NCBI GenBank assembly: GCA_028293125.1
Contig: JAQGPJ010000048.1
Location: 62,001 to 126,000 of the forward strand
Reading direction: 5' to 3'
Length of the DNA stretch: 64,000 bases
DNA from: Verrucomicrobiales bacterium
GTDB taxonomy: Bacteria > Verrucomicrobiota > Verrucomicrobiia > Verrucomicrobiales > V1-33
The translations under genes and the position numbers were made by a program. This document shows, in pieces, positions 4,038-24,996 of this stretch. Positions within the stretch are counted from its first letter, which is position 1. The number at the start of each line of letters is the position of its first letter. The notes under the pieces were generated by a model. The model was not told the origin of the DNA. It saw only the letters and a program-made list of their open reading frames with translations, and ran no database searches.

Positions 4038-5237
4038 CTAAAAAGTGATGCCCACTCCTGTGAAAACACCTGAAGTCATGGTGTCATAAGTGAAGCCTCC
4101 ACTGGTATAATCCATTTCAAGGCACCTGTAACCAAGCTCAAAAGTGACCTTCCTGCCACACTGCCAACCGAGGCCTGCATAAGCCTGCCATGCGAGATCC
4201 GAACCCACTCCAAATCCCCCTATGTCCGCACGGGCGGCAGCGTAAAAACGGCTGGTGAAGTTATAACGGGCGCGCACTCCAATGATCGGATCAATCCAAT
4301 CCTCCGAACCGGAAACACGGTCCGGGACAGCGGCCGTAAGTGCCTCCTCAATCCGCTGAGCCAATTTTTTTTCCGCCCGCAGGATCGCCTGCTGTGCTTT
4401 GTCCCGCAGCCGGGCTTTGGTTCCGGAGACGGCGGCACTGGCCACTGCGGCGGTTTCCATCAAATTCTCCGCCTTCACGGCCAACCGGGCGTTGACAAGC
4501 TCCCGTATGGCATCGCTGACCGGCCCGTCGCTTTTTTCAAAAAGTTCCAGTGCCCCGGGAAGATTGGGATGTCCGGCCAATACCTGGTCCACGCGTTGCT
4601 GCAGGGACGATTCGACCGCTTGCCTCACCCGCGACTGCACTTGCGGAACGGCCTGACGCACAGCTGAATCAACACGGCTGACGGCTTCCGATGCCAAGTC
4701 TCTGGAAAAAGATTCAATGCCTGCAGTGTCGGCATGGAATCCCAGGCTGCTGTCGAGATGCATGTAACGCACCCCGGCGAAAACATCCAGGAAGCCCCGT
4801 TCATTTTCCCAGATACGGTAGCCTATGGAGGCTTCGGCCATAATCTGCTCCACCTCCACGTCAATGGTGGAGAGAAGCCGTCCAGGGGTCCCGTCATCAC
4901 CGGACATTTTCAGATACATGCCGTCCAGAAGGAGCATCCAGCGGTCATGCCTCACCTCCGCCTGCAGGGCCGCGGTCATCTCAAGATTTTTTAAAATCTC
5001 GTTGAATGACACATCGGTTTCCGCCGTGTATCCTTTAACGCCGGTGGTGCCCTCCATACCCGCAAGCCATCCGTAAGGACGCACCGTAACCTCCCAAAGG
5101 GACGTGGGAGGCGGCGGATTATAGGAAGGCCCGCCGTCCATCGAAACGGTCGGAGCACCGGCTTCAGCGTTTCCCAGCTGAAAAGCAGCGAGAAAAGCCG
5201 CAGCGGCCGCAATTAATAAAAAGCATTTTGATTTCAT
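4038..5237 (-). CDS. Outer-membrane beta-barrel protein with inserted helical domain
   Basis: 399 aa with a signal peptide (hydrophobic 5-20, cleavage near NAEAG). Residues 46-165 and 313-399 show alternating amphipathic strands typical of a small outer-membrane barrel (WEVTVRPYGWLAGMEG, ASIGYRIWE, VFAGVRYMHL; later IIGVRARYNF, YAGLGWQ, FELGYRCLEMDY) and end in the aromatic terminus VGITF. Between them, about residues 170-312, lies a long Ala/Glu/Arg/Val-rich stretch without strand character that should be helical. Function unknown. It is the last gene of the putative Ysc84 transcription unit; 210 AT-rich bases separate it from the lipoprotein gene upstream. Confidence 0.7.
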   Translation of the reverse strand: MKSKCFLLIAAAAAFLAAFQLGNAEAGAPTVSMDGGPSYNPPPPTSLWEVTVRPYGWLAGMEGTTGVKGYTAETDVSFNEILKNLEMTAALQAEVRHDRWMLLLDGMYLKMSGDDGTPGRLLSTIDVEVEQIMAEASIGYRIWENERGFLDVFAGVRYMHLDSSLGFHADTAGIESFSRDLASEAVSRVDSAVRQAVPQVQSRVRQAVESSLQQRVDQVLAGHPNLPGALELFEKSDGPVSDAIRELVNARLAVKAENLMETAAVASAAVSGTKARLRDKAQQAILRAEKKLAQRIEEALTAAVPDRVSGSEDWIDPIIGVRARYNFTSRFYAAARADIGGFGVGSDLAWQAYAGLGWQCGRKVTFELGYRCLEMDYTSGGFTYDTMTSGVFTGVGITF

Positions 5238-7541: not shown

Positions 7542-8114
7542 TTAATTCAGACGGGAAATTTTGGACCCCTGAAGCCCGAGGCCGCCCATCAGACCGCGCT
7601 GGTTGAAGAAAAAGGCATAGGTGCCTTTATTGATGGTGGTGGTGGACAGTGAGCGGGAAATGCCCTGATCCACCACCACAAGGCTTGGGCTGCTTCCGAT
7701 TTCCCAACCACCGCTCCGGTTGATATTTTGAAATGCCTCCCGGTCCATGAGAAAAAGCGCATACCCGTATTTCTGCACGCCGGCCTGCAGGCCATAGGAG
7801 AGACCGGCAGTCTGATAAAAGCTCCGGATACTCCCGTCCGGAAGAATGAGGGCTCCATTTCCGCCCATCCCGCCCACAACGAAGCCGCCTTTGGTGATGT
7901 TCGGGAAAACAAGAATGCCCTCCGCCCGGGCACCGAGAGCGCGTGCCTGGGGGTTTTCCTGATAAAGCCCATGCAGTGCGGCACGTGATTCCGCAGCAAT
8001 GGAGGAAGTCATGGTGCTGGTGGCCGCAGGCTGCGTGGCACAGCCCGTGAAACCCAGACAGACCAGGGCCATGCCAAGAATAACTTTCGCGTATGATATC
8101 AATTTATTTTTCAT
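7542..8114 (-). CDS. Ysc84/SYLF-domain lipoprotein
   Basis: 190 aa; lipoprotein signal with lipobox GFTGC (Cys25). The rest matches the Ysc84 (SYLF) lipid-binding domain: AEGILVFPNITKGGFVVGG, GALILPDG, YQTAGLSYGLQAGVQKYGYALFLM and the C-terminal GTYAFFFNQRGLMGGLGLQGSKISRL. In bacteria this domain is found in envelope lipoproteins thought to bind phospholipids. It is the first gene of the run 8114-4038, so it is the gene most directly served by the regulatory palindrome at 8418-8435, although a leader of about 300 nt intervenes. Confidence 0.85.
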   Translation of the reverse strand: MKNKLISYAKVILGMALVCLGFTGCATQPAATSTMTSSIAAESRAALHGLYQENPQARALGARAEGILVFPNITKGGFVVGGMGGNGALILPDGSIRSFYQTAGLSYGLQAGVQKYGYALFLMDREAFQNINRSGGWEIGSSPSLVVVDQGISRSLSTTTINKGTYAFFFNQRGLMGGLGLQGSKISRLN

Positions 8115-8494
8115 AAAAAATCAGAATTTATCAGTTTAGAATAAGTTTTTAATTTAAATTATTGATTATAAACAGCAGGTCGGCGCATCCAGGGCGCACA
8201 CTGCTTTTGGCGTGGAGAAAATGGGACCGTGGTCTTCATCGTGACCGCATGACAGTGCTGACGGCATCCAGCGGGAACACGAATGTCCCTGCATTGCCCG
8301 GCCATGCACCGATGACCCGAGAAATCGGAGGCGGGACCGGCCAGGCAGAATGTTGGCTGAACACTTAAGGCTGTTGATCATCCGCCGCCACCATGAGCCG
8401 CCCCGCAGGGGTTGTATATTATACCTTGGTTCAATTTCCTAAGAAATTGCCGGAATGCTCCATTGGACTTCAGCTCAGCAGAAACATTTAAAAT
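8115..8494. other. Intergenic region, 380 nt, with one copy of the island palindrome
   Basis: No convincing gene. The 5-prime leader of the Ysc84-type gene (8115-8165) is strongly AT-rich. Short open frames on both strands (about 68-71 codons, 8162-8381) lack coding character or recognisable content. The palindrome at 8418-8435 is the only structured element seen. Confidence 0.6.
8418..8435 (-). promoter_or_regulatory. Island palindrome, copy 1 (ATTGAACCAAGGTATAAT on minus strand)
   Basis: One of four 18-bp sites that share ATT at the left end and the 13-bp core ACCAAGGTATAAT. This copy has the least symmetric left arm. It lies between the end of the decayed response regulator (8495) and the Ysc84-type gene (start 8114). 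Its TATAAT end points toward the Ysc84-type gene. It could hold the -10 hexamer itself, or be an activator site with a downstream -10 (CATGGT begins 23 nt past the motif). Confidence 0.65.
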
Positions 8495-9194: not shown

Positions 9195-10268
9195 TCAGCG
9201 CAGAAAAATGACGAGAGAGGTGAGCGTGAAGACGAGTGGAAAGATCCAGCGCGACCAGTTGTCAAGGCGGCGTGCCCCATCCAGCCGGCCGATACCCGCC
9301 AGCTTGGTCGAGGCCAGGACCTCGCAGAACGAAAAAAACACGAGGAGCGAACTCATCAGGATAAAGGAGTCCAGACAGGTGAGATATGGCAGCTTGGGCA
9401 CATCGGAATCCACGGCGGAACGATAGGCGAAAAGGGTAAGCATGGCTGTCACCGCAATCCCAAATTGGGATCCCCCATCAGTGGGCTCAATCCAGAAAAC
9501 CGCCCAGGACATCATCACGATCAGGATCAGTGGCAGGATGACCTTGATGACAAAGTGCCGGGAATTGCGTGCCGCAGTGAACTCTGCGGCCACCCCCGCG
9601 ATCTCACGGCCAGGCGCAATGGTGTAGGGTGCAGGCCCGGCACCGGTGCGCAGAAGCCGCCAGTCCTGCACTGTCAGCCCGGCGGCCATGCCGAAACCGT
9701 CGGAAAAACCGGCGGCGGCGGCATACACATCGGGTTCAAAGACCAATTCCGACGGGGTATAACCAGGGGCAATGAAGTGAATGCGGAAAAGGGCTTCGTC
9801 AAAAGGAAAGGCCCGGAGGTCGAGTCGCTGTGTGAAATCGCCCGTGAGCCATTGCCGGTAAACGACATCACCCTCCGGGGTCACGCTCACAATATCCGGC
9901 AGCGAGTGAGCCTGCTCCGAAGCCTCGTTCAGAACCATGAGGCCGGGGTTCCAGATATCCTCCAGCGCATATCGTTTTGTGCCCGGACCGGCGTGTTTCA
10001 GACGTGGATCATGCCAGCGCAGAAACACGGCGCAATTGGCTTTGAACGTCTGGGCAATACTCTCAATGCGCGTGATGTCGCTGATCCCGATGATGTAGCC
10101 GACTTTGGTCGGACCCGCTGCAGGTTCGGGTCGTTGGGGTGCCGGGGGAAGCGGTGTTGCAGCCTCCGCTGCGCTCACACCGCCCATTCCGGCCACCAGA
10201 AACAGTGTTATGAAAAAGAGAAAAAATGCCTTTGTTCTGCGGGCAGCTCCCAGCAGTCCCGGGCTCAC
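9195..10268 (-). CDS. Pentameric ligand-gated ion channel homologue (Cys-loop superfamily)
   Basis: About 357 aa from the GTG chosen here, which yields a textbook signal peptide (RRTK, hydrophobic AFFLFFITLFLVAG, cleavage near SAAEA); an ATG at 10502 is possible but adds atypical sequence. The extracellular beta-rich domain contains LDLRAFPFDEALFRIHF, equivalent to the conserved loop before Pro-Phe-Asp in prokaryotic channels such as GLIC and ELIC. Four C-terminal membrane helices follow: M1 FVIKVILPLILIVMMSW, pore-lining M2 QFGIAVTAMLTLFAYR, M3 YLTCLDSFILMSSLLVFFSF, M4 near WIFPLVFTLTSLVIF. It should form a homopentameric channel in the inner membrane; ligand and ion selectivity are unknown. 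Last intact gene of the parvulin/HupE unit. Confidence 0.82.
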   Translation of the reverse strand: MSPGLLGAARRTKAFFLFFITLFLVAGMGGVSAAEAATPLPPAPQRPEPAAGPTKVGYIIGISDITRIESIAQTFKANCAVFLRWHDPRLKHAGPGTKRYALEDIWNPGLMVLNEASEQAHSLPDIVSVTPEGDVVYRQWLTGDFTQRLDLRAFPFDEALFRIHFIAPGYTPSELVFEPDVYAAAAGFSDGFGMAAGLTVQDWRLLRTGAGPAPYTIAPGREIAGVAAEFTAARNSRHFVIKVILPLILIVMMSWAVFWIEPTDGGSQFGIAVTAMLTLFAYRSAVDSDVPKLPYLTCLDSFILMSSLLVFFSFCEVLASTKLAGIGRLDGARRLDNWSRWIFPLVFTLTSLVIFLR

Positions 10269-10580
10269 GGGGCAGCCGTCATGAACGTCCCTGCCCTGAA
10301 GCACTGCACCCCGCAGTCCGTGGAGTTCCCGTCCATCATTTACCGGAAACCGCGTTGCGGTGTCCGGCCCGGAGACGATCTGTCCGGCATCAATAGGCAA
10401 CATGATTTCCGGTTCCCCGGGGGTGGGAAGAGTGCATGACCAGGCGGCATCAACGGTTTTCATCTCCTTCAAACTGTTCCAGCGCGGTGCCTGTTTTGAC
10501 ATCGTTGTTTACCCGATGGCGCATGCCGCCATGAGAACAGCCCGAAAAGGCTCGCAAAGAGTTGGCTGTTCGGATTGCTC

Positions 10581-10964
10581 TCATGCTCCAGTGGCTGCCC
10601 GATGAACGGAGATGGACCTGAGGACGGCCACGCACCAGGCAGCCAACGCCGTGTGAAGACCGATGGCCAGCCAGAGACCAGGTCCTGATAACCCGGCACC
10701 AAGAGCCGCATGGGCAAGAATGGCACCGGCGGCGGCGTTGTAAAAAAGCATCGCCAAGACCAGTGCGCGGCTTCCCGCACGCGCCATCCAGCACGCCAGC
10801 CCCAGTGCCAGCAATGCCGCTCCGGCGATGCGCCCGACTGTCCCTGCGGCAAGCCCATCAGGGGGGGTGCCCAGCAGCAGCCGCACAATCAGCGAAGGCG
10901 ACAGGAGCAGTCCCAAGCCGGTCACGGCCTCCATGACGGCTGTGATGGCAAGCAGGAGTTTCAT
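10581..10964 (-). CDS. Small four-helix integral membrane protein
   Basis: 127 aa from the ATG of MKLLLAITAV, selected because translation upstream of it is not membrane-like. Four hydrophobic helices are visible: residues 4-25, about 40-60 (IAGAALLALGLACW), about 66-87 (LVLAMLFYNAAAGAILAHA) and about 93-115 (WLAIGLHTALAAWCVAV). No family recognised with confidence. Located 41 nt after the DUF1254 gene and upstream of the ion-channel gene in the same orientation, so probably cotranscribed. Confidence 0.6.
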   Translation of the reverse strand: MKLLLAITAVMEAVTGLGLLLSPSLIVRLLLGTPPDGLAAGTVGRIAGAALLALGLACWMARAGSRALVLAMLFYNAAAGAILAHAALGAGLSGPGLWLAIGLHTALAAWCVAVLRSISVHRAATGA

Positions 10965-11005
10965 GGATCGGCTGATGGAGTTGTCCCTGTGACAGCAGGG
11001 ATTGC

Positions 11006-12403
11006 TTACGGCACCATTTGCAGCTTTGGCGCGGTCCACCCGCCAGTCAGCGCTTCTTCTTTCGGCCAGTAGAGACGCATCGCCAGCATGAACGGTCCCT
11101 TCGGCGCCGGGAGCCAGTTGGCCTCCTTGTCCTTGCCGGGGGATTCGTTTTGGATGTGGAGCGTTACCCCACCGTCGGCATCCTTCCTGAACTGCGGAAG
11201 CATTGGCGAGTTGAGCAGGTAGCGGTTGAGCGGATTTTCGACCAGGAGTTGGCGCGGCAGATCATACATCGTCACTGACCAGAACGCATGCACCGGCGGC
11301 AACTCGCCCGGTGCAAAGCGCAGCTTGTAGCGGTGGTTCGCGGCATCAAGTTTCCCGCCCGCGCCATCCACCGTGTAGAGCGGATACATTGCTTCAGCCT
11401 TCGAGTTGCCGAAGATACCGAGGATCGCGGCAGCCATCCGATAGAGATAGTTGTTCCGGAGAGAATCGCGGGAGCCGAAGAGGTCGCCGGAAGTCACCTT
11501 GCCGGAATCGATTTCGGTTCGTTTGAAATCGTCGAATGCCTCCCACGCATCAGCCATGCCCTGCTCGAGGGCCTGCCTGATCTCCGGGGAGAGTTTGGTG
11601 GCATCGAAAGCCTTCCCCGCACCCACACCGATCTGCGCGAATCGCGCCATCAGCGCGGTTTCGGAGGGCACGGTGGGACAGTAATTCAGCACGAAGTTCA
11701 GCACGCTGAACAGCTCCAACGAAGTTTTCTGCCCGCTGGGAGTGCAGGGCTTGATGTAATCCAGCGCAGGTGCGGCGGCGGGCGCTGGCTGGCCAAGGAA
11801 TTTACTCAGCGGCTGCAGGCGGTAGCCGGCCTGAATTTTCCTCACCGCGTCCATATCATCCGGCCGGAAGAGTTGTGTGCGGTAGATAGCCAAGACAAAA
11901 TTGGTCTCGCTCGCAATAACCTCCTTGATGCCGGCCGGTTTGGCACCTTTCCAGCCCGGACCGGCGAGCAGGTAGTTCGCGGCACTGTTGCCCTTCGTGC
12001 GGCTCCCGATGTAGGCAAAGTTATGCGTGTAGGCATCAACAAGCTGTATCGAATAATAACGTTCCTTCTCCACCTCCGGCACCGTGATCACCATTGGCTC
12101 TGTGCGCAGGTCGGCACCGAAGAAGGAATAGGGCGTATCGGAGTTTGGCGTCTGCACGGCCTTGTCCTCCGGGGTGAACAGCCGCGCCATGCTCACCAAT
12201 TGATTCAGCGGCCCTTTGAATTCAGGATTTCCCGGCAGCAGCCAGTAGGCATGGTTGATGCGGTAGCTATCCACCATCGGGTAACCATAAATGCAGGCTT
12301 CCTTAGCGATGGCGCGGGCTTCGTCAGGAGTCGGCCCGGCCGCGCGGGAAGTGTTCAGCCCCAGCCCCAGGGCCAGTGCGAGGATTGACAGTTTGATTCT
12401 CAT
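11006..12403 (-). CDS. DUF1254/DUF1214 domain protein, exported
   Basis: 465 aa from the ATG that starts a signal peptide (RIKLSILALALGLGLNTSRA). Hallmarks of the DUF1254-DUF1214 family: EACIYGYPMVDSYR near the N-terminus, VQTPNSDTPYSF, YYSIQLVDAYTHNFAYIGSRTKG, and C-terminal DUF1214 elements PPVHAFWSVTMYD and LTLHIQNESPGKDKEANWLPAPKGPFMLAMRLYWPK-type sequence. These proteins are periplasmic, widespread and functionally uncharacterised. The gene follows the DUF3604 gene by about 35 nt and precedes the membrane protein/channel pair. Confidence 0.88.
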   Translation of the reverse strand: MRIKLSILALALGLGLNTSRAAGPTPDEARAIAKEACIYGYPMVDSYRINHAYWLLPGNPEFKGPLNQLVSMARLFTPEDKAVQTPNSDTPYSFFGADLRTEPMVITVPEVEKERYYSIQLVDAYTHNFAYIGSRTKGNSAANYLLAGPGWKGAKPAGIKEVIASETNFVLAIYRTQLFRPDDMDAVRKIQAGYRLQPLSKFLGQPAPAAAPALDYIKPCTPSGQKTSLELFSVLNFVLNYCPTVPSETALMARFAQIGVGAGKAFDATKLSPEIRQALEQGMADAWEAFDDFKRTEIDSGKVTSGDLFGSRDSLRNNYLYRMAAAILGIFGNSKAEAMYPLYTVDGAGGKLDAANHRYKLRFAPGELPPVHAFWSVTMYDLPRQLLVENPLNRYLLNSPMLPQFRKDADGGVTLHIQNESPGKDKEANWLPAPKGPFMLAMRLYWPKEEALTGGWTAPKLQMVP

Positions 12404-12438
12404 GGATTTGCGTCTGTCCGTTCGTGGAAGGGTACAGA

Positions 12439-14391
12439 TCACTTGGCTGCCGGCGTGTACCAGATCGGTGAGGTGTAAGCGCGCTCGGTGAGGGTCATGG
12501 CCGTTCCGGGGAGCGGTTTCACGCCAAACCGTTTTGCGTCATAGGCGGCCCAGCGCGGTGTGGGAATTTCAAGCACACGGACATAGTAAAACGCTCGCAG
12601 TTCCGGGCTGAAGTCCGGGTCTTTCCAAACTCCGAGAAGTTCCGGCGCGCCGATGGTGTTCGTCCAAGTGGCATTCTCGATATCCACTGTGGATCCGACG
12701 CCAGGGAGCCTGCCCTCCCCGTCTGGCCTGCGGTCGCCGCTCCAGACCGCATCATAGACTTTCTCCTGCAGCTCTCCCTTGGCATCCATCCAGCCTTTGA
12801 TGATCTGGATGCGGTCAAGGTTGGCGCCGATCGGGTCCTTCATGGCCGCCACGAGGAAGCTGGGGGATTTATCCACAGGCGCCCCGTGGAGATCGCTGCC
12901 CATGGGCACGCCCTTCGTATAGCCCGCGACAGCGGGGCTGCGGCTTTCCGCATCCGCCTTTTCAAAATCCCAGCCTCCAAAGAACCGCACCACCATGCGG
13001 GAGCCGGTGGTGGCGTAGGTTTCCCTGCGCTGCATGGCGTCCCAAAGGGAGGCACGGGTGTTTTCCTCAGCCCATACCGCCGCATAGCCGGCCGCGCAGA
13101 CCTCCCAGTCCATGATGGTGATGCCGGTTTTGGGATTTTTCAGGAAAGCTGCGGTGAGCCGGTGGGGGCTGGGTTCGCCGGGCGTGATCTTGCCAAAAAA
13201 ATTATCCTCCTCGACCGCCGCGAGGGCAGTGTGGGCGTCGCTGCTGCCGACCATCCCGAACTTGTAGGGATTCACGCCGAGCTTCTCCTCAAGCCTGAGT
13301 CCGTTCTTCAGCGCGGCGCGGGCATACTCAAATTCGAGCATCTCTTTTTTCTTCGCAGCGCTGCCATCCAGATTGCCTTTATCCCAGCGTTCCTGGTCGG
13401 CAAATTCGTCGTTGGGAGAGAGAAAGGGGTGAGTCTCACCATCGCCCTTGGTTTGCGTGGCCTCATAGAGCCGCTCCCACTTGGCGCGCGCCTCGGCGTA
13501 ATCACGGTCAACTGCTTTGCCGAAAGCCTCCACGATGGGGAACATGGTGCCGTTGCTGAGGTTGCCGTTGTGCGCGATGGCAAGAACGCTGCCGCCGGTT
13601 TTTTTCTCGTAGGCGTCCATCCATTTCCACAACTCGACGGGGTTGTTGCTGCCGAGTGGCGGAACACAGGTGAAAGGCTCGACCTGGATGGCTTTTTCGC
13701 CATTGTCGCGGAAGATCACATTGCGGTGCAGGTTGTTTCCTTTATCCAGGGAGGTCCACTCGTAACCAATGAAGGCGGTGAAACGCCCAGGCTCATTGAA
13801 GGTCTCCGCCGCGTCGATCGTCTCCCTCCATGCACTGCGGAAGGCGCGCGAACCGGGAAGCGATGCGAGCGCCGGGGGGAATTTCCCCTGCGAGAAAGAC
13901 ATCACAATCTCAATACATGCCTCACCCCCTTTGCCGTTCTGGATCATGTCGTACCATCTGCGGCCGGTGGGGTCGGCCAGCATCTCTGTTTTCCCGGCCA
14001 GAAGATCCGGGAAAAAGCCCATGTTGTCCGAGTGATCCGCCACCACGAGGAAATCCAGCGGACGGGAAAGCTTTGCGGGCTGCCCGCTGGAGGCCATCAC
14101 CTGCTCGCCCCGGGCAAAGCGCAGCGCGTCGCGCGGCCCGAGCCGGCAGCCGGCGGCACCCGCATCCATTGAATAGGAAGTATGCAGATGCGTGTCCCCA
14201 AAAAACGGCCGGGTCGGGAATTTGCGGTCCGCGTAGGGTGAGTAAGGCCGCGTTTTAAAACCAGCGGCGGCGGCTTCCCTGCTGAGTGTGCCGGCATCCC
14301 CGGCGGGCGGGTCTCCCTGCGCTCTGAGGCCGGGCTGTGAAAGGCCAAGGAGCGCGAGCGCCATGGCGGTGGTGTGTTTGCGCGTCTTCAT
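12439..14391 (-). CDS. DUF3604 family exported protein (PHP-like metal site)
   Basis: 650 aa with signal peptide (MALALLGLSQPGLRAQG). Conserved DUF3604 elements: FFGDTHLHTSYSMDAG (about 64-78), VVADHSDNMG, FIGYEWTS, IAHNGNLSNGTMFP and GSSDAHTAL. The distributed His/Asp residues resemble a PHP-type metallohydrolase centre, suggesting a metal-dependent enzyme, but no substrate is established for the family. The C-terminus carries beta-rich sequence ending TERAYTSPIWYTP. It lies 18 nt after the HupE/UreJ-like gene. Co-occurrence of DUF3604, HupE/UreJ and a membrane-anchored parvulin is something I recall from other genomes, which supports a shared process. Confidence 0.88.
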   Translation of the reverse strand: MKTRKHTTAMALALLGLSQPGLRAQGDPPAGDAGTLSREAAAAGFKTRPYSPYADRKFPTRPFFGDTHLHTSYSMDAGAAGCRLGPRDALRFARGEQVMASSGQPAKLSRPLDFLVVADHSDNMGFFPDLLAGKTEMLADPTGRRWYDMIQNGKGGEACIEIVMSFSQGKFPPALASLPGSRAFRSAWRETIDAAETFNEPGRFTAFIGYEWTSLDKGNNLHRNVIFRDNGEKAIQVEPFTCVPPLGSNNPVELWKWMDAYEKKTGGSVLAIAHNGNLSNGTMFPIVEAFGKAVDRDYAEARAKWERLYEATQTKGDGETHPFLSPNDEFADQERWDKGNLDGSAAKKKEMLEFEYARAALKNGLRLEEKLGVNPYKFGMVGSSDAHTALAAVEEDNFFGKITPGEPSPHRLTAAFLKNPKTGITIMDWEVCAAGYAAVWAEENTRASLWDAMQRRETYATTGSRMVVRFFGGWDFEKADAESRSPAVAGYTKGVPMGSDLHGAPVDKSPSFLVAAMKDPIGANLDRIQIIKGWMDAKGELQEKVYDAVWSGDRRPDGEGRLPGVGSTVDIENATWTNTIGAPELLGVWKDPDFSPELRAFYYVRVLEIPTPRWAAYDAKRFGVKPLPGTAMTLTERAYTSPIWYTPAAK

Positions 14392-14409
14392 GAATGGATG
14401 GGCTGGAAG

Positions 14410-15522
14410 TCAGAGAATCGTCAGGCGCTGGATGGCCCAGAACATGGCCACACTGCCGATGGCGTACGGCGGGAGGGAATACGTCCATCGGGGAAATGGC
14501 AATCTGTTCCACCTCATGGGCGCGGTGAGGAAAAGCACCATGGCCACAAATGCCAACTGTCCTGCTTCGACCCCGGCATTGAAGAGCAGCAGGGCCGTCG
14601 GGATGTCACCCGGTGGAAGGCCGACCTCCGCCAACGCGCCTGCAAAACCGAATCCATGCAGCAGACCGAAAGTGAAGGCCACCACCCACGGCGCGCGCTC
14701 CGTGAGGCCGGGCTGACCCCGCCGTGAACGGATAATTTCCGCGGCCACAAAAACAATGCTCAGGGCGATAACCGCTTCGACAGGTGCGGCGGGAATATGC
14801 ACCATCCCAAGCGTTGCCAGCGCGAGGGTGATGCTGTGCGCGAGGGTGAAAGCGGTGATCGTTTTCACCAGCCGGCGGGTGCCGCGCACAATAAGCATAA
14901 GCGCCAGAACAAACAAAAGGTGATCGACTCCCAAAAGAATGTGCTCCACTCCGAGGGTGAAGTAAGCACGGACAGGCGGCGCGCCATCACCGGCCTGGAA
15001 GCGGAACGAGGGCGCGTCCGGGCGCAGCAGATGCGTGATGACTTGGCCATCCCTGAGCGCGATGCGCACGAGAACATCAACCATGGTTGCCGGGAGGCCA
15101 TGCACCATGACGTCCCAGCCCTCCAGTCCGCGCGGTCCGGTGCGGATCGTCCAACGTTTCAGCTCCGCCCCCTGAATCCGCTCACTGCGCACCAGGGAAA
15201 TGACCATGGCGTCCGCTGGCAGCGCCGGGTGAATCGCGAGTGTGCCGCGTGCCAGTTGTTCCGCCGTCGGCGCCGGGCAGCCGCAAGGCATCGTCCGCGA
15301 TGCCCCGGGGTCCCCGGGCGGGAGCACTCTCTGCTCATGAGGGATCTCCTCACCGGCCAAGGGAATGCCACCCGGTGCTGGCACTTTCCAGAGCACCTCA
15401 AACTCATTGGGGGCCCCTTCCCTCAGTTCCAAAAACGCCGGACGGACCTCATGCGCCCGCGACGACACGCCTGACAGTATCAGGAACAGCGCCGTGAGCA
15501 AAAAATGTTCCGTGCGGCTCAT
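14410..15522 (-). CDS. HupE/UreJ family membrane protein
   Basis: 370 aa. A signal peptide and about 170 residues of extracytoplasmic domain precede a membrane domain of about six to seven helices with the HupE/UreJ signatures HILLGVDHLLFVLALML and FGLLHGFGFAGALAEVGLP. HupE/UreJ proteins are linked to nickel or cobalt uptake in hydrogenase/urease clusters. This long secondary type occurs without those enzymes, so metal transport here is inference only. Its start overlaps the parvulin stop by 4 nt (ATGA), indicating translational coupling. Confidence 0.85.
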   Translation of the reverse strand: MSRTEHFLLTALFLILSGVSSRAHEVRPAFLELREGAPNEFEVLWKVPAPGGIPLAGEEIPHEQRVLPPGDPGASRTMPCGCPAPTAEQLARGTLAIHPALPADAMVISLVRSERIQGAELKRWTIRTGPRGLEGWDVMVHGLPATMVDVLVRIALRDGQVITHLLRPDAPSFRFQAGDGAPPVRAYFTLGVEHILLGVDHLLFVLALMLIVRGTRRLVKTITAFTLAHSITLALATLGMVHIPAAPVEAVIALSIVFVAAEIIRSRRGQPGLTERAPWVVAFTFGLLHGFGFAGALAEVGLPPGDIPTALLLFNAGVEAGQLAFVAMVLFLTAPMRWNRLPFPRWTYSLPPYAIGSVAMFWAIQRLTIL

Positions 15523-16517
15523 GGATTTTTCTGTGCGGTTGCAGCCGGAGCGGATGCCGCAGCCGCCATCGCGTCCTCATCAATCACGACTTCATAGTTT
15601 TTCCGGAGGCTGGCTATGACTTCCCCGTTTGCCTGCCGGCGGCGCTCGTCGAGAAGATCACGCATCACGGTGTCCCGCACTCTGGCCAGCGGCTCCGGCT
15701 GTGGTCCGGCATGTTCCGTCACCAGCAGCAGATGCAGCCCATAGCTTGAGCTCACCGGGCCGGTCCAAGTTCCAAGCGGGGCATTCATCACCGTCCTGGC
15801 GAATTCCGGGCCGAAAAGACCGCTCACGTCCTGTTCGCGCCGGCCCGCGAAGATGAAGTCATGCAGAAATGGATCTCCCATGGTCTCCTCGGATACTGCG
15901 GATTTTGTCAAGGCAGCCAGCGCCTCCTTCGCCTGATCCTCCACGGTGGCCCCCCGGCGGTCCCTGCCGAAAAACACGTGCCGGAAACCCACCTCCGCCG
16001 GTCGGGAGTAACGCTCCGCATGCTCCGTAAAAAACCGCGCAAGGGCTTCCTCATCCGGTGGCGCCGCCATGCTGATGTCCTGTGTGAGGAACTCCAGCTT
16101 CTGTGCCAGCCTGCGGCGCACAATCGAGTCATCCCTGTCAAGACCCATTGCCAGGGCCTCGCGGCACAGCACTTCCTCTTTTATATGGGCGTCCACCTGC
16201 CCGCTCAGATCCGCAGCGCTTGGCGGACGCAGGAACTGCCGTGTCCAGGCATCCTTCAGACGGGTGATCACTGCGGCATTTATCTCAATCCTTTTCCCTT
16301 TGTCCGCCGCTTCGCTGTCAATGCCTCCGTGCCGCCAGGCGTGGACTCCGAAGATGCCTGCTCCAAGCAGAAGGAAATGAACCAATGGCTCCTTCAAAAA
16401 CTTTGTAAAAGTTGCCCCGGGCCCCTGCTCCGCTGACCGTAATTCAGCATTAGCGGGCTTTACAGGCTTCAGGATTTTACTTCCGTTTGAGGAGCCGGAC
16501 GGGAGAAGGACGTGCAT
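15519..16517 (-). CDS. Membrane-anchored parvulin-type peptidyl-prolyl isomerase
   Basis: 332 aa. A cytoplasmic N-terminus of about 45 residues and one membrane anchor (LVHFLLLGAGIFGVHAW) lead to a SurA-N-like helical region (LCREALAMGLDRDDSIVRRRLAQKLEFL) and a PpiC/parvulin domain (GFRHVFFGRDRRG; FGPEFARTVMNAPLGTWTGPVSSSYGLHLLLV). The product should fold or quality-control proteins on the periplasmic side of the inner membrane. First gene of transcription unit iii. The island palindrome lies 42 nt upstream of the start codon. ATG 16517 is the best start because the palindrome and a compact leader precede it directly. Confidence 0.85.
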   Translation of the reverse strand: MHVLLPSGSSNGSKILKPVKPANAELRSAEQGPGATFTKFLKEPLVHFLLLGAGIFGVHAWRHGGIDSEAADKGKRIEINAAVITRLKDAWTRQFLRPPSAADLSGQVDAHIKEEVLCREALAMGLDRDDSIVRRRLAQKLEFLTQDISMAAPPDEEALARFFTEHAERYSRPAEVGFRHVFFGRDRRGATVEDQAKEALAALTKSAVSEETMGDPFLHDFIFAGRREQDVSGLFGPEFARTVMNAPLGTWTGPVSSSYGLHLLLVTEHAGPQPEPLARVRDTVMRDLLDERRRQANGEVIASLRKNYEVVIDEDAMAAAASAPAATAQKNP

Positions 16518-16844
16518 TTGATTGTCTTTGCATCATGGCGGAAAAAGCAAAGATGGGTATTATACCTTGGTTTAATGCCCGTACGTCCCTTTCCCCCGGT
16601 CCGGTTATTTTCCGCCATCAAAAAGGAATATCCTGCGATCCTCTGCCGGTTGCCAAACCCGCACGCACAGGCAAAGAACCGTTTGGCCTTGAAAACACCA
16701 TTGAGGACTGCATCCCCCGCCTGTCCGGCATCAGTCATCGAAGCTGAGGAGGCGCATTGGACGTCATGGCATTGGATGGCCTTTGAAAAGTGGCCGGCTA
16801 AAACGCAGTGAGCAGCGGGCAGGCATTGCTGTTTCCAGTGGCAG
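16518..16844. other. Intergenic region, 327 nt, with one palindrome copy
   Basis: Separates the lipoprotein-hydrolase stop (16845) from the parvulin start. Contains the island palindrome at 16559-16576. Open frames across it on both strands have no protein-like composition. No terminator-type hairpin with a T-run was noticed. Confidence 0.6.
16559..16576 (-). promoter_or_regulatory. Island palindrome, copy 2 (ATTAAACCAAGGTATAAT on minus strand)
   Basis: Shares the 13-bp core ACCAAGGTATAAT with the other three copies. It sits 42 nt upstream of the parvulin start codon, oriented with TATAAT toward the gene. If TATAAT is the -10, the transcript begins near 16552 with a leader of about 35 nt. 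If the palindrome is an activator site centred near -41.5, CATGAT (starting 22 nt past the motif) would serve as -10 and the leader would be only a few nt. Confidence 0.75.
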
Positions 16845-18515
16845 TCAATGTTTTGAGAATGTCCGCGCATGAAGTTTCAGAATACGCATGACCTCCGCAA
16901 TGGCCTGAGGATTCTGATGGGCGCTGTGGTTGGAAGGCACGATGAGTTCGCTGGCGGCTCCATCCATGTGGCTGCTCCAGTAGGGAACGAAGCCGTCCCC
17001 CCGGACCGGTTTGGCGTGGTCCGGATTGCCCCCCTTGCCTCTGTCCCCGACGATCACGTGGTAGGGAATGCTGCGGGACGGCTCGATTTTGTTGATGAAT
17101 TGGACAAACCGGTTTTTGGGGGACATGGTGTCCACACTGTTGGGAATGCGTGTCGGACCGACGTAATCCCCGGAGGTCCGCACGGACTGCAGCGCCTCGC
17201 CGCCCGCTTTGACCAGCGTGACGGGGGAGTGCACCAGACGGGCACCGAAACGGCCCAGCCAGCCGGAGGCGAGATCGCTGCCGCGGAGCGGGGCGGCGAT
17301 GAGGATGGCCCGCGCCACGTCCTCACGCTTTTTGAAGATGAGGGCGTCGGTGAGAAGCTGACGGGTCTCAGGTGAAAGCTTGGTTTCCGCAGGGGATTGT
17401 TTGAAGGTTTCCCTCCAGATTCTGTCACCGGTGTCCGTGATCATCAGGCGGGTGATGCAGCCGCCCATGCTGTGGCCGATCAGCACCGCGTCTTTGTGTT
17501 CCGGATGCTGCCGCTTGATGGCGTCCATTTGCCTGCGCAGAATGGCGGCGGAGTGTTGGTAGGGGTATCCGCTGGGGTAGCTGAAGAACCAGAACTGATA
17601 GTTCGCGCGGATGGCCGGATCCGCCCGGAGTGTATTAATAAGGGGTGTCCAAGTGGCGGGGGAATCCATCAGACCATGAATACAGATCACAGGAATTTTT
17701 TTCGGATCATAAGGCTGGAGGCGGGCAAGCCGGGCGGTCTCAGTGTATTTTCCCGGCCGCAGCAGACGGGTCAGTTCCATTTTTTTCGGGTTTTCCCTGA
17801 CCAGCATTATGGCCAGCGGCGCGGTGTAGTCCGCAGCCAATGGGTATGGCCTGTTGCCCAGCACCGTGGTTTCGTTGGATAACGGATCCTCAAAGCTGAC
17901 GATGCAGCGACGTCCCTCAAACCGGGCGACAGCGGTGACTCCATAATACATTTTCCTGCCTTGGACAAACTTGTCCCGTTTCAGAAATTCCGAGGCATCC
18001 GCCAGCACGGCGACCAGCGGTGCGCCGAGGCCTTCCTTGACCAGGCGCTCGCTGGTGTAGGTGCCGCCGACCTGTATCTGGTCGGCGGGGATGAATTCTA
18101 TTTTGCCCAGAACAGCCTCCTTTGTAATGGTGGTGGTTCCAGACAATTCCCAGGCACCATCATTCCCGGAGACTGTCAGCGGTCGGTCCCAAGCGCTGAT
18201 TTTCGAGTCGCGGAGCTGCGTGAACACGCGGGCCAGCGCGAAGTTGTACGCTTCCCGTGCCTCCATATTGTCCGGGTGCCGTTTGAGCTCCGAGGCGGCG
18301 ATTTCAGTGGCCGACAGAAGATCGGCCAAGGCTGCATGGGGATTTTTGGAATCATGGGCCAGTGCCGCGATTATATTTTTCCGGGCCAGATCCAAGGTGC
18401 CCACCGTGTGGCTTACGGGCTTGAAAACCGGGCGGGTTTCCGAAATGGTGGCGTAATGCGAGCACCCTGAAAGGGCGGGCAACAGGCTGAGGAGCAGAAG
18501 GAGAAGCTTAATCAT
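16845..18515 (-). CDS. Lipoprotein with C-terminal alpha/beta-hydrolase domain
   Basis: 556 aa counted from the ATG at 18515, which opens a perfect lipoprotein signal (MIKLLLLLLSLLPALSGC, Cys18). An N-terminal region of about 250 residues precedes an alpha/beta-hydrolase core: ICIHGLMDSPATW (oxyanion region), nucleophile elbow GHSMGGC, and a late VPSNHSAH carrying the likely catalytic His. It resembles exported lipase/esterase-like proteins with a lecithin-cholesterol-acyltransferase/PGAP1-like core. The upstream transhydrogenase frame runs into this one without a stop, so the sequence as given could encode a single fused chain. I annotate it separately because an internal lipobox makes no sense in a cytosolic fusion. 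Confidence 0.78.
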   Translation of the reverse strand: MIKLLLLLLSLLPALSGCSHYATISETRPVFKPVSHTVGTLDLARKNIIAALAHDSKNPHAALADLLSATEIAASELKRHPDNMEAREAYNFALARVFTQLRDSKISAWDRPLTVSGNDGAWELSGTTTITKEAVLGKIEFIPADQIQVGGTYTSERLVKEGLGAPLVAVLADASEFLKRDKFVQGRKMYYGVTAVARFEGRRCIVSFEDPLSNETTVLGNRPYPLAADYTAPLAIMLVRENPKKMELTRLLRPGKYTETARLARLQPYDPKKIPVICIHGLMDSPATWTPLINTLRADPAIRANYQFWFFSYPSGYPYQHSAAILRRQMDAIKRQHPEHKDAVLIGHSMGGCITRLMITDTGDRIWRETFKQSPAETKLSPETRQLLTDALIFKKREDVARAILIAAPLRGSDLASGWLGRFGARLVHSPVTLVKAGGEALQSVRTSGDYVGPTRIPNSVDTMSPKNRFVQFINKIEPSRSIPYHVIVGDRGKGGNPDHAKPVRGDGFVPYWSSHMDGAASELIVPSNHSAHQNPQAIAEVMRILKLHARTFSKH

Positions 18516-19965: not shown

Positions 19966-20760
19966 TTAACGGTTATCAGTCATCAGTTCGCGGAGAATCA
20001 ACTGGTAAGGCTCGGAACTCAGGCCCAGCTCACCCCGGAAGGGGCGGTCCAGCGCCAGGATCATGAAGATGACCAGCCCCACAAAAGCGGACAGGAGAAA
20101 CACCAGTGCCCCGTGCAGCCGGCCATCCTCCACTTTGAAAAACCAGGAGACGCTTAAAGCGATAAACGCCCCAGCCGCGACAACGATCCACATAACCCCG
20201 GACAGGCCGGTGTTCACCGCGTCAAGGCGCAGGCGGCGGGCAAAAATCATTTCATTCCAGGCACGGAGGGTTTCGCCATGCAGGAGCTTCTGGCCCTCCG
20301 TGACGGGCTCAAAAGCGGTGAGGATATCCTGAAGGGAGTTTATGCGCTCCACCCCGCCCTGAGGCGATTTCCCCTGCTGCTGCCGGGGCCAGGCATCATG
20401 GATGATGTATTCCACATAACCGCGCAGTTCATTCCGAAGACGCTGCCGCGCCGGCTCCGGATAACTGCTTACGCCACGGTATACCACGGCCAGAGCCGTG
20501 GCCTCGCTGGAAACGATTTTGGAAACGTCGTTATAGGTCTCCGAGACATTCACCGCCATCAGGGCCACCGCCAGCCCGTAGAACACCATGACCGACTGCA
20601 TGACCGCTCCGGTGAATTCGGAGTCCTCCGGTTTCCCTCTCAAGCGCGGCAGGACATGACGGCGCACCAGCAGCAGACCGCACAGAACAGGGAGGCACAA
20701 CGCGGCGATGATCCCCGGACAGGTGACCGACAGCGGAAGATCAAAAATCCGGTCCAGCAT
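19966..20760 (-). CDS. DUF4239 (bestrophin-like) membrane protein
   Basis: 264 aa. Membrane helices at about 12-32 (CPGIIAALCLPVLCGLLLV), 53-70 (AVMQSVMVFYGLAVALMAV) and two near the C-terminus (VMWIVVAAGAFIALSVSWFF; GALVFLLSAFVGLVIFMILAL), with a soluble helical middle (QRLRNELRGYVEYIIHDAWP). This arrangement, and the terminal LDRPFRGELGLSSEPYQ, are the marks of DUF4239, described as bestrophin-like. Ion-channel activity is only suggested by that similarity. Starts 9 nt after the zinc-ribbon gene, so cotranscribed. Confidence 0.85.
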   Translation of the reverse strand: MLDRIFDLPLSVTCPGIIAALCLPVLCGLLLVRRHVLPRLRGKPEDSEFTGAVMQSVMVFYGLAVALMAVNVSETYNDVSKIVSSEATALAVVYRGVSSYPEPARQRLRNELRGYVEYIIHDAWPRQQQGKSPQGGVERINSLQDILTAFEPVTEGQKLLHGETLRAWNEMIFARRLRLDAVNTGLSGVMWIVVAAGAFIALSVSWFFKVEDGRLHGALVFLLSAFVGLVIFMILALDRPFRGELGLSSEPYQLILRELMTDNR

Positions 20761-21254: not shown

Positions 21255-22745
21255 TTATTTTGATCGTTCAACTGCCTCTTGGAAGTCCCCTCCCAGGGCG
21301 AGGTGCAGATTGACCCGCTCGCGGAGAAGCGAAGCTCGGATCTTGGTGAGCTCGATTTTGGCGGCCAGACTTTCGCCCGCGAGCCGGAGGAGGGTAAACA
21401 TATCCGCGTGGCCCTCATCAAACTGCAGTTTTCCCAGTTTGACGGTCACTCCGGCCTGTTCGACCATTCCGGCCAGCGCTCCCGCGCGTTTGTTCAGATA
21501 ATACTCGCTCGCCAAGGCTCCCTCCACCTCCCCGAACGCATGGAGCACGGTGGCGGTGTAGGAAGCGGCGGCGGCCCGCTGCTCGGCGGTGCGGATCTCC
21601 TCGGCGGCTTTCAATTCCCCACCGAAGAAGATGGGCTGGACAACCCCGCCCGCCAGGCTCCAGCTCAGGGCGTCCAGCGTGCCCACTCCGGACAGCTGGG
21701 CCGTTCCCAGGCCCCCTGAGGTGCTCAGTGAAAAGCGGGGCAGGCGGGCGGTGCGGGCCTCATTCACCCGGTGGAAAGCGGCGGCGAACCGGCGCTCGGC
21801 GGCGATGATATCGGGTCGCCTCTCAAGGATTTGCGCGGGGAGGCCTGAAGGCACGTATTTTGGCTGGCCGGGAAAGCTGGCCGGCGGAGTCAGCCTGCCG
21901 GCAGGATAATGGCTGGTCACCACTTCGATGGCCCGGATCGCCTGCGCCCGTGCTGCCTGGGCCACGTAGAGTGAATCCTCCACACCGGCACTGCGGGATT
22001 TGATCTGTGCCAGATCAAAGTCGCTGGCGTGCCCCTGCGTTTTCAGAATTTCCGCCAGCTTCAGATAATCGCGGTAAAGGCCGAGGGTTTCCTCAGCGTT
22101 GACGGCCTGCTGCGCAGCTTCGATGCTGGAGAAGTAAGCGCGGGCCACCGTCGCCGCGAGGGACTGACGGGCGAATTCATAATCCGCGCTCAGGGCTCCG
22201 CTGTCGAAAGCTGCGGCAGCCCGCTTTGACCGGACCCGGCCCCAGACATCCGCCTCCCATGAGGCCCCGACGCCAATCCCGGCAACCCACCGCTGCGAGG
22301 AGGATTCAGCACTGCGGCTGCCCGGACTGCCTCCGGTATTGTCCACTCCCAGTCCTCCCAGGCTGGGCGGGTCAAGCCCGAGATCAATATCCCCATCAAG
22401 CTTCTGCCCTTGGAATTCCCCTAGGGTCTTGACGGCAATCCGGGGATACAGGGACGCTGCGGCCACGCGCACGGCGGCTTGGGAGGCCTCGACGCGCGCG
22501 GCGGCGGCCCGCAGGTCAGGGTTCCACTTCAGGGCGTTATTGACAATCCTTGTCAGGCCCGGATCTCCAAAGGACCCAATCCATCCCGGAGCCATCGTGC
22601 CGCCTTGGTGGGCACCGCTCCATCCGGCCGGGATCTGACCGCGGGCCGCATCCGTCAGAATAGCGGAGCCGGATGGCGGGGTTTTGAGCGCGCAGGCGCT
22701 GAGCCCAAGGCATGCCGCCGGAATACTTAAAATGATCAATTTCAT
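21255..22745 (-). CDS. TolC/NodT-type outer-membrane efflux lipoprotein
   Basis: 496 aa; lipobox LSAC (Cys18). Two outer-membrane efflux protein repeats are visible: an N-terminal helical pair (NPDLRAAAARVEASQAAVRVAAASLYP) and the second repeat starting near ILERRPDIIAAERRFAAAFHRVNEARTA, the latter a hallmark of NodT-family exit ducts. It would form a trimeric channel-tunnel across the outer membrane. Follows the HlyD-type adaptor by 9 nt. No inner-membrane pump gene is adjacent. Confidence 0.92.
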   Translation of the reverse strand: MKLIILSIPAACLGLSACALKTPPSGSAILTDAARGQIPAGWSGAHQGGTMAPGWIGSFGDPGLTRIVNNALKWNPDLRAAAARVEASQAAVRVAAASLYPRIAVKTLGEFQGQKLDGDIDLGLDPPSLGGLGVDNTGGSPGSRSAESSSQRWVAGIGVGASWEADVWGRVRSKRAAAAFDSGALSADYEFARQSLAATVARAYFSSIEAAQQAVNAEETLGLYRDYLKLAEILKTQGHASDFDLAQIKSRSAGVEDSLYVAQAARAQAIRAIEVVTSHYPAGRLTPPASFPGQPKYVPSGLPAQILERRPDIIAAERRFAAAFHRVNEARTARLPRFSLSTSGGLGTAQLSGVGTLDALSWSLAGGVVQPIFFGGELKAAEEIRTAEQRAAAASYTATVLHAFGEVEGALASEYYLNKRAGALAGMVEQAGVTVKLGKLQFDEGHADMFTLLRLAGESLAAKIELTKIRASLLRERVNLHLALGGDFQEAVERSK

Positions 22746-22754
22746 GCTTGGCAG

Positions 22755-23939
22755 CTAGTGCAGCTTGGGAACAAACCAGTCGAGCTTCGTGGAGACGCGG
22801 ATCATCACTTTGCGGATGACATGCAGCATGGCTCCCTTGTCCGTGAAAATAGCTCCCGCTCCCCGGGCTCCGGCGGCGAGGAACAGCTCCCGGTCCTTGT
22901 CATTCACGATCAGCCGCACCGCGATTCGCTGGTCCGGCGCGCTGGCGGGCGCGGTGTTCGGCAGGTTCCCGCTGATAGGCATCTGCCCCTGCGCCGTGGC
23001 CCAGAGAATGGAGTCCACTTTGCATTTGATGACCCGGCCCGGATAGGTCTTCAGGTAGATTTCGGCCTCATTTCCCGGCTCCACATAGCGCAGTTCATTC
23101 TGGCTGAAAAAGGCCACGACCCATTGGTCCTTATCCTCAATGAAACTCATCACCGGCGAGAACGGCATCTGCACCGCCCGCACGCTGGGGCGCAGGGCCA
23201 GATTCGCCACCCGGCCATCCGCCGGAGCCAGATGCACGGTTCCTTCCAGATCAAATTTGGCGCTGGCGAGATCCGCTTCGCCTTGGACAATCTGCGCTTT
23301 TGCCTTGGCAACCTCGTCAATTTCCCCCGTTGCGGTGCGGGCTGAAAGTTTCTGCCGCACCTGGGATTCCGTGGCCTCGGCGGCGATGATCTCACTTTCA
23401 AGGTTGGCGGCATTGGAAAGGGCCTCGTCCAGATCGCTGCGCCTCCCGGCTCCCGCATCAGCCAGCCTGGTGTACTGCTCCACCCGCTTCAAAGCGAGCT
23501 GCAGCCGGGCATCCAGTGCGGCTTTCTTGGCGGCGGCATTTTTAAGCTGCTCGTCCAGCCCCCGCTGGGAGGCTTCAGCGGTGACCAGCGCCACTTTGAA
23601 ACCCTCAAGTTTGGCCTCGGCCAGTTTGACGGCCAGCTGAAAGGGCACTGGATCAATTTTGAAGAGAACGTCCCCCTTTTTGATAGGGCGGTTGGGTTCG
23701 ATGGGCACCTCCGTCACCTGTCCGCTCACCCGCGGCACCACCGGCACCACGTAGTTCATGGCCCGGACATCCACCGTGGAAGGCGCCACAATATTCAGAA
23801 AAAGAATCGTCATTACCAGCCCCACAACCGGAATGGTGACCACGATGACCTGGCTGACGATATTCCAAGGCAGCCATTTCAGCTTGATAAAGATCAGCCA
23901 GACGAAGAATGAGTAAATACCCAGAAGAATGATTTCCAT
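22755..23939 (-). CDS. HlyD/EmrA-type membrane fusion protein (YibH-like)
   Basis: 394 aa. Two N-terminal hydrophobic segments (IILLGIYSFFVWLIFIKL; VIVVTIPVVGLVMTILFLNI) instead of the usual single anchor, then a biotinyl-lipoyl half-domain (VPRVSGQVTEVPIEPNRPIKKGDVLFKID), a long coiled-coil hairpin (about 110-230), the second lipoyl half (DGRVANLALRPSVRAV) and a beta-barrel domain. The arrangement matches the YibH/AaeA branch. It bridges inner membrane and the TolC-like duct. Its ATG overlaps the DUF3302 stop by 1 nt. Confidence 0.9.
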   Translation of the reverse strand: MEIILLGIYSFFVWLIFIKLKWLPWNIVSQVIVVTIPVVGLVMTILFLNIVAPSTVDVRAMNYVVPVVPRVSGQVTEVPIEPNRPIKKGDVLFKIDPVPFQLAVKLAEAKLEGFKVALVTAEASQRGLDEQLKNAAAKKAALDARLQLALKRVEQYTRLADAGAGRRSDLDEALSNAANLESEIIAAEATESQVRQKLSARTATGEIDEVAKAKAQIVQGEADLASAKFDLEGTVHLAPADGRVANLALRPSVRAVQMPFSPVMSFIEDKDQWVVAFFSQNELRYVEPGNEAEIYLKTYPGRVIKCKVDSILWATAQGQMPISGNLPNTAPASAPDQRIAVRLIVNDKDRELFLAAGARGAGAIFTDKGAMLHVIRKVMIRVSTKLDWFVPKLH

Positions 23940-24475
23940 TACGCTTTTCCTCCCTGTTGGTTGGAGATCAGGGATTCCAGCTCCGCCACCCGTGAGCGCA
24001 GCCGTTGGACTTCCGCATTATGATCCTCTGTGATTTTTGTTTCGGTCACGGAATGATCCCCCCAGCCTGTTTTTCCAAGCTTTCCCTTAGGTTCCGGGCC
24101 GTGGGAATCATCGGTATCGGTACCGTAGGCCAGTTTATGCAGAGTCGGCCTGGTGTAGGCCCACAGCCAGGCGATGGGCCAGAGCAGGCCTCCAAAAAAC
24201 AGTGAGAGGAGACAAAGGCACTGAATGGCTTTCGCTTGGGGATGCCGGCGTTTCTCCGCGATTTTCTCGGGGAGAATATGAATGAGCCAGAAAACCGTGA
24301 TGATCACCACCGGAGCCACCACAATGGCCACCCACGAGACCACCTCCGCCATGGTGTCCAGAGCCTCCCCATGCAGAAAGGAGGCGCGGGCCGGAACGGG
24401 CACGCCGCAAAAAGCCGCCAGCACGGACAGGACACACACCCCGCGCGGTGGCCGTCTTAAAAAAGGATATTTCAT
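23939..24475 (-). CDS. DUF3302 family membrane protein (YibI-like)
   Basis: 178 aa. Signal-like N-terminus, then two membrane helices (VVSWVAIVVAPVVIITVFWLIHILP; CLCLLSLFFGGLLWPIAWLW) separated by PEKIAEKRRHPQAKAIQ, the DUF3302 signature. The C-terminal 50 residues are charged and end in a short coiled coil (AEVQRLRSRVAELESLI). In enterobacteria yibI (DUF3302) lies beside yibH (HlyD-type), which is the same pair seen here. Likely an accessory of the adaptor/duct. Follows the receiver gene by about 60 nt. Confidence 0.85.
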   Translation of the reverse strand: MKYPFLRRPPRGVCVLSVLAAFCGVPVPARASFLHGEALDTMAEVVSWVAIVVAPVVIITVFWLIHILPEKIAEKRRHPQAKAIQCLCLLSLFFGGLLWPIAWLWAYTRPTLHKLAYGTDTDDSHGPEPKGKLGKTGWGDHSVTETKITEDHNAEVQRLRSRVAELESLISNQQGGKA

Positions 24476-24538: not shown

Positions 24539-24955
24539 TCAGAATTCCGGAAACGTCTCCTCCTTTGAGCAGGAGCCGCCCATGGCTTTTTGCAGCGCAC
24601 TCAGCAGAATGGTTTCATCAATAGGTTTAGTTAGGTAAGCCACCGCTCCCAATAAGAGAACCCGCTCCGCATTTTTAGGCTCGTCATGTCCGGTGATAAC
24701 GATTACAGGAACAGGACAGTGCCGCGCCCTGAGGGCTTCCATCACCTCGAATCCGGTCATACCCGGCATATGCAGGTCAAGCAGAAGACAGTCCGGGAGC
24801 TGTTCGGAAAATATTTGCAGCATTTCACTGCCCATCGTGTGGGTCTCGACAAGGAACCCATGTGTCCGTAGAAGACGCCCTAGGGCTTTCCTCATCTGGA
24901 CCTCATCATCTAGGATGGCTATGGTTGTCCGCCCGTTGTTCATCGGCTCAACCAT
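24539..24955 (-). CDS. Stand-alone CheY-like receiver protein
   Basis: 138 aa (or 134 from the inner ATG at 24943, which gives the cleaner receiver start MNNGRTTIAILDDEV). All receiver residues are present: acidic pair DDE, phospho-acceptor Asp in LLLDLHMPGMTG, VITGHDEP and Lys in YLTKPID. No output domain. As the first gene of transcription unit ii it may relay or sink phosphate from the kinase at 25707-28859. The island palindrome is 23 nt upstream of the first possible start codon. Confidence 0.88.
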   Translation of the reverse strand: MVEPMNNGRTTIAILDDEVQMRKALGRLLRTHGFLVETHTMGSEMLQIFSEQLPDCLLLDLHMPGMTGFEVMEALRARHCPVPVIVITGHDEPKNAERVLLLGAVAYLTKPIDETILLSALQKAMGGSCSKEETFPEF

Positions 24956-24978
24956 GGCCAGGGGGTTCCACAGGCGCT

Positions 24979-24996
24979 ATTATACCTTGGTGTAAT
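24979..24996 (-). promoter_or_regulatory. Island palindrome, copy 3 (ATTACACCAAGGTATAAT on minus strand)
   Basis: Same 13-bp core as the other copies, in the short gap between the FixJ-type regulator stop (25075) and the receiver gene (24955). TATAAT faces the receiver gene. With TATAAT as -10, the leader to the inner ATG (24943) is about 30 nt; no clear Shine-Dalgarno sequence is visible. The alternative -10, CATGGT, begins 23 nt past the motif, the same spacing as in copy 1. Confidence 0.75.

Follow-up and report, generated by a model that had tools for sequence, protein, structure and literature searches.

The window analyzed here, a 64,000-nt stretch of a Verrucomicrobiales contig, carries a minus-strand island of cell-envelope genes (a 27-kb block, ~4.0–30.7 kb), of which the run from a PPIC-type peptidyl-prolyl isomerase (PPI) to a pro-loop pentameric ligand-gated ion channel (pLGIC) is only the middle (Table 1). 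The first-pass annotation had grouped the channel with parvulin, HupE/UreJ, DUF3604 and DUF1254 genes, and Pfam bears out all of these families; for the channel itself, Neur_chan_LBD (PF02931, 2.4e-12) and Neur_chan_memb (PF02932, 1.6e-11) both lie above cut-off. The short junctions it had read are also correct, with a 4-nt overlap between PPI and HupE, 18 nt between HupE and DUF3604, 35 nt between DUF3604 and DUF1254 (ATG 12403) and 41 nt between DUF1254 and a small membrane protein (ATG 10964). Its picture of a tightly spaced unit that ends in the channel holds for these upstream junctions but not for the last one, as an extra 127-aa gene lies between DUF1254 and the channel, and the gap from that gene to the channel is 78 nt if counted to the first ATG and ~312 nt if counted to the likely GTG start. 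No terminator-like site was found on the minus strand in this gap.

Table 1. Features of the minus-strand island, in order of transcription (positions are those of the window).
Feature	Position	Strand	Evidence or remark
Site ACCAAGGTATAATA within palindrome ATTATACCAAGGTATAAT	30692..30705	minus	before PLD-HK-FixJ, proposed unit 1
PLD-family (cardiolipin-synthase-like) protein	28973..30532	minus	
Sensor histidine kinase (HK), Reg_prop/Y_Y_Y sensor and FixL-like kinase part	25707..28871	minus	
FixJ-type response regulator, candidate reader of ACCAAGGTATAATA sites	25075..25710	minus	
Site ACCAAGGTATAATA	24978..24991	minus	22 nt before response regulator, proposed unit 2
Single-domain response regulator	24539..24955	minus	
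DUF3302, HlyD and outer-membrane-factor (OMF) efflux genes	21255..24475	minus	
Bestrophin-like protein	19966..20760	minus	also adjoins lipase-pLGIC in L062
PGAP1-like lipoprotein lipase, recurrent channel partner	16845..18515	minus	in frame behind SthA-like reductase 18516-19904
Site ACCAAGGTATAATA	16558..16571	minus	40 nt before PPI, proposed unit 3 (PPI to channel)
PPIC-type peptidyl-prolyl isomerase (PPI)	15519..16517	minus	Pfam PPIC Rotamase_2 9e-12
HupE/UreJ_2 membrane protein	14410..15522	minus	Pfam HupE_UreJ_2 8.4e-50
DUF3604 exported protein	12439..14391	minus	Pfam DUF3604 4.9e-242; PHP-like metal-ligand motifs
DUF1254/DUF1214 exported protein	11006..12403	minus	Pfam DUF1254 2.9e-46, DUF1214 3.3e-34
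Small hydrophobic membrane protein, 127 aa	10581..10964	minus	ORF; no Pfam or NCBIfam match
Pro-loop pentameric ligand-gated ion channel (pLGIC)	9195..10268	minus	Pfam LBD and TM domains; PDB homologues GLIC, glycine receptor; AF2 pLDDT 89.6, pLGIC fold
Site ACCAAGGTATAATA	8417..8430	minus	before Ysc84, proposed unit 4
Ysc84/SYLF lipid-binding-type protein	7542..8114	minus	homologue directly after channel in L062
Outer-membrane-protein-like	4038..5237	minus	homologue directly after channel in L035/L036

The PHP-like reading of DUF3604 rests on residues invariant across five sequences (HxH 68/70, DH 119/120, E211, H222, H274 and DxH 385/387). A structure prediction from three sequences reached a pLDDT of 37.9, and a sequence search of the PDB gave no homologue, the sole match having an E value of 0.36. 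Literature searches with DUF3604, DUF1254 and combined cluster terms returned nothing on this island, and the only mentions of DUF1254 in the literature searched were one entry in each of two transcriptome tables.

Several reading frames of the island are irregular. In ORF 16845-19904 the lipase is joined in frame to a preceding SthA-like transhydrogenase (482 bits against NCBIfam PRK05249, whose cut-off is 465); the lipase's own signal peptide begins at the internal ATG 18515, which points either to loss of a stop codon or to an internal start. Downstream of the channel, a second FixJ-type regulator gene (8495-9100) is seemingly frameshifted twice, and its comparison with the intact copy at 25075-25710 reveals a 1-nt register change in repeats (spacing 16608 vs 16607). 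DUF2092 (6737-7524) seemingly occupies two frames, 7524-7171 in one and 7288-6737 in the other, a possible further frameshift near the broken FixJ gene, through local decay or sequence error.

Start, fold and pore of the channel

The first-ATG ORF of the channel (ATG 10502, 435 aa) places ~78 residues ahead of an obvious signal peptide, which favors GTG 10268 as the likely start. The homologue at locus L072 backs this choice, as it has a short signal peptide ahead of the same PLPPAP-RP stretch. The AlphaFold model, begun at GTG 10268 and built with 52 sequences (pLDDT 89.6), consists of an N-terminal helix, a beta-sandwich (strands 54–234) and four TM helices (236–356), and aligns over the whole chain with GLIC and with glycine and GABA-A receptors. 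Three hallmarks of pLGICs are present. Specifically, the extracellular ligand-binding beta-sandwich is found both as PF02931 and in the strands of the model, the four TM segments include a hydrophobic gate at M2 9′ (L9′ in 49 of the 52 sequences), and the FPxD Pro-loop appears as FPFD, with ≥90% conservation of P and D among the same sequences. The pore carries G-2′, S-1′ and Q0′ (Q0′ in 45/52), within a clade signature of G/S-2′, S/T-1′ and Q0′, and this filter holds neither an acidic residue at -2′/-1′ (cation, GLIC-like) nor R0′ (anion, GlyR-like). Because the -2′ to 0′ stretch bears no charge, ion selectivity is not readable from the sequence. The channel, which a genome search found to be the single pLGIC of the source genome, is an ordinary member of the known pLGIC family, within a clade having a neutral filter.

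Genomic neighbors of the channel clade

A profile of the channel clade run on 84,980 species genomes gave 80 loci from many phyla. In total, 97 channel loci outside the window were compared, a few of which are the same contig twice (such as L072 and L083, judged one contig by length and content), many are short MAG contigs, and some come from possibly mixed bins. L104, for instance, is labelled Acetomicrobium with a gene content that suggests otherwise; on this one contig, three pLGIC genes fall within 7 kb, accompanied by arylsulfatase, DUF1254, DUF2092, Ysc84-like and outer-membrane genes.

The first-pass annotation had proposed that the channel works with the DUF3604/DUF1254/HupE unit, sensing a DUF3604 or DUF1254 product or a HupE-linked metal/proton gradient, and had named the neighborhoods of DUF3604-HupE-parvulin loci as the place to look. 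The tight, same-strand upstream genes, their common upstream site and the lack of a terminator-like site ahead of the channel speak for such a partnership, as does a gammaproteobacterial locus (L131) where a related channel is preceded by two DUF3604 genes. We consider it improbable nonetheless, as five relatives (L038, L040, L041, L043 and L074, with a different gene order in two) have PPI, HupE and DUF3604 clustered at loci that lack a channel. PF12228 (DUF3604) profile searches of 57 relatives and of 388 genomes from the phylum recovered substantial DUF3604 genes in 11 genomes, the source genome included, and in the ten others none lies near a channel; L042 has DUF3604 and PPI, L037 DUF3604 alone, both without a channel, and three genomes with channel-free DUF3604 loci (G018, G041, G315) carry their channels on other contigs. 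The source genome itself has a second, channel-free island (L039, G000:C88:227000-244168) with HK, FixJ, response regulator, arylsulfatase, PPI, HupE, a DUF3604 81% identical to that of the window, DUF2092, transporter-like and outer-membrane genes. From the channel's side, HupE or PPI is near 0/97 of the other channel loci and DUF3604 near 1/97 (L131), and a pooled Pfam tally of channel neighbors has sulfatase and PGAP1 among the commonest. The absence of the channel from otherwise conserved loci, which the first-pass annotation had itself named as refuting evidence, thus holds as far as an evolutionary link is concerned. Neither a DUF3604/DUF1254 ligand nor a HupE-linked metal or proton gradient therefore finds comparative support, and the search for the channel's role is redirected away from DUF3604 and HupE. 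We rather regard PPI-HupE-DUF3604, as part of the overall explanation that we lean towards, as a plug-in cassette between lipase and channel here, and not as the channel's dedicated partner.

The recurrent cross-phylum neighbors of the channel are a lipase and an arylsulfatase, not the genes first proposed. Homologues of the PGAP1-like lipase encoded in the C-terminal half of ORF 16845-19904 are near the channel in 13/97 loci (12 distinct contigs), always on the same strand (13/13) and 57–210 nt away in five. The lipase stands beside 6 of the 13 channels closest to that of the window vs 3 of the 67 others in the 80-locus scan (Fisher p 0.0004), and, among 19 channel-bearing Verrucomicrobiota genomes, 11 have lipase homologues and 5 of these 11 have one ≤10 kb from the channel vs 0.12 expected (P ~6e-8, or ~4e-6 with one genus, that of G008 and G011, counted once; all but this last value treat loci as independent). 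One arylsulfatase subfamily, with about one copy per genome, is near the channel in nine loci, upstream and on the same strand in 9/9, and lies ≤11 kb from it in 4/9 genomes; the single copy of the source genome is in the C88 island, and the window island lacks a sulfatase. In L062, bestrophin-like, lipase, channel and Ysc84 genes are contiguous. The lipase adjoins the channel in several close relatives, and in L079, L081 and L086 it stands directly ahead of it at a distance of 125–210 nt. Because lipase and channel adjoin in these last three loci but not in the window, where the block from PPI to the membrane protein stands between them, this block looks inserted.

On the channel tree, the sister group of the window channel is L076 plus L077 (support 100/96), both beside a lipase. 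A single ancestral lipase-channel event was considered and rejected, as the lipase label does not form one clade (8 changes; 62/500 shuffles as low); the lipase link is therefore recurrent. In another subclade, a small multi-pass membrane protein without a Pfam family adjoins the channel in two phyla (L131:9197-9817 and L032:8242-8817) and is a possible channel partner there.

The channel might instead be a passenger, a separately transcribed gene in an envelope-gene hot spot with no functional tie to cassette or lipase. Two channel clades (~25% identical) do occur in similar islands, their neighbors vary widely, and only 14/388 genomes of the phylum have the channel. We nevertheless judge this rather unlikely, given the same-strand recurrence of lipase and sulfatase, the invariable upstream position of the sulfatase, the 4-nt overlap of lipase and channel in L062, and co-location far above chance in whole genomes.

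A repeated 14-bp site and a proposed FixJ-type regulon

The 14-bp site ACCAAGGTATAATA is present in four exact copies, spread over 8417–30705 and all on the minus strand. This motif, noticed post hoc, is the only AT-balanced 11-mer repeat found at least three times on one strand in the island, and amounts to a half-palindrome plus TATAAT without an obvious -35. There is no other exact copy of its 13-mer core in the 6.48-Mb genome, and the sole one-mismatch copy (C88:242267) sits in the second island, where FixJ and the response regulator flank it, a position that matches the window site at 24991. A shared site ahead of gene runs, as expected of a FixJ-type regulon, is present in the island in four exact copies, with a near-copy at the second island. 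FixJ-type regulators are also near channels in L131 and L144, and no equivalent of ACCAAGGTATAATA or a similar palindrome was found in the islands of relatives.

The simplest reading is that ACCAAGGTATAATA acts as an activator site overlapping the -10 box, read by the adjacent FixJ-type regulator, its position making that protein the candidate. This suggests a putative FixJ-type regulon of four transcription units, predicted as PLD-HK-FixJ (unit 1), response regulator-DUF3302-HlyD-OMF-Zn ribbon-bestrophin-reductase/lipase (unit 2), PPI-HupE-DUF3604-DUF1254-membrane protein-channel (unit 3) and Ysc84-DUF2092-DUF3313-outer-membrane protein (unit 4). PPI to channel may be one predicted transcription unit because the site 40 nt before PPI recurs only past the channel and no terminator-like site precedes the channel, so that unit 3 would possibly reach it, and the first-pass annotation's idea of co-transcription thereby gains support; against this, the ~312-nt gap could carry the channel's own promoter. 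Copies of a small, non-regulatory mobile repeat would likewise be short, identical and confined to one strand, as these are, and could be missing from relatives. We hold this origin to be very improbable, as the sites are intergenic ahead of gene runs, contain TATAAT, belong to an imperfect palindrome, diverge outside the core and are confined to the island, and the near-copy of the second island, the fifth site, stands ahead of the corresponding regulator gene.

Proposed role and relation to known systems

The observations comprise the genes of the island and their spacing, the fold of the channel, lipase and arylsulfatase recurring next to related channels in several phyla, and the four identical 14-bp sites ahead of gene runs. 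On balance we favor, with some reserve, the explanation that the channel is an inner-membrane, periplasm-facing homopentameric pro-loop pLGIC of a modular cell-envelope island, made together with envelope genes under the FixJ system and reacting to products of envelope enzymes or to lipid state. On this view, the ACCAAGGTATAATA sites would serve as promoters switched on by the FixJ-type two-component system of the island, and exported hydrolases, outer-membrane proteins, efflux genes and lipid-handling proteins would be expressed alongside the channel. The channel would most likely react to something released by the envelope enzymes, or to membrane lipid state, by opening its pore and so changing ion flux. 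Weighing against this explanation, about three quarters of the clade's channel loci are without lipase and sulfatase, many of them on short contigs. We further speculate that the widespread Q0′ neutral-filter clade as a whole belongs to a FixJ-controlled envelope-remodelling program and is gated by lipase or arylsulfatase products (fatty acids, lyso-lipids, sulfate or a desulfated compound), a generalization that we think doubtful.

We know of no established role for bacterial pLGICs, and if the proposed explanation is true they would gain a genetically anchored physiological one. The cross-phylum partners, lipase and arylsulfatase, combined with the possible regulon site in this genome, would narrow the question of what the channel senses to a few testable compounds and knock-outs. 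A 2016 inventory recorded no bacterial pLGIC studied in vivo by then (PMC4795631). Tasneem et al. 2004 (PMC549065), who surveyed Cys-loop relatives in bacteria together with their operons, described PBP, Cache and Na+/H+ symporter neighbors; the present locus differs in that no lipase, arylsulfatase or FixJ systems were reported there. A recurrent lipase and arylsulfatase link in FixJ-type envelope islands was not found in the literature searched.

The regulatory genes resemble FixL/FixJ systems in that the kinase part of the window HK best matches FixL among NCBIfam models, although below the FixL cut-off, and a FixJ-type regulator is adjacent; they differ in the sensor, here a Reg_prop/Y_Y_Y propeller, and the target site here is putative. 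Among channels, the proton-gated pLGIC of Gloeobacter, GLIC, shares the same pro-loop pLGIC fold (24% identity over 326 columns; TM-score 0.84, normalized by target) but bears glutamate at -2′, in contrast to the G-2′, S-1′ and Q0′ of the window channel. The best single-sequence PDB match is the glycine receptor 6pxd (4e-28), and the best structural match a GABA-A subunit (Z 28.5). The glycine receptor and the window channel both have Gly at 2′ and Leu at 9′, whereas glycine and GABA-A receptors have R0′ where the window channel, which is bacterial and has a short M3-M4 link, has Q0′.
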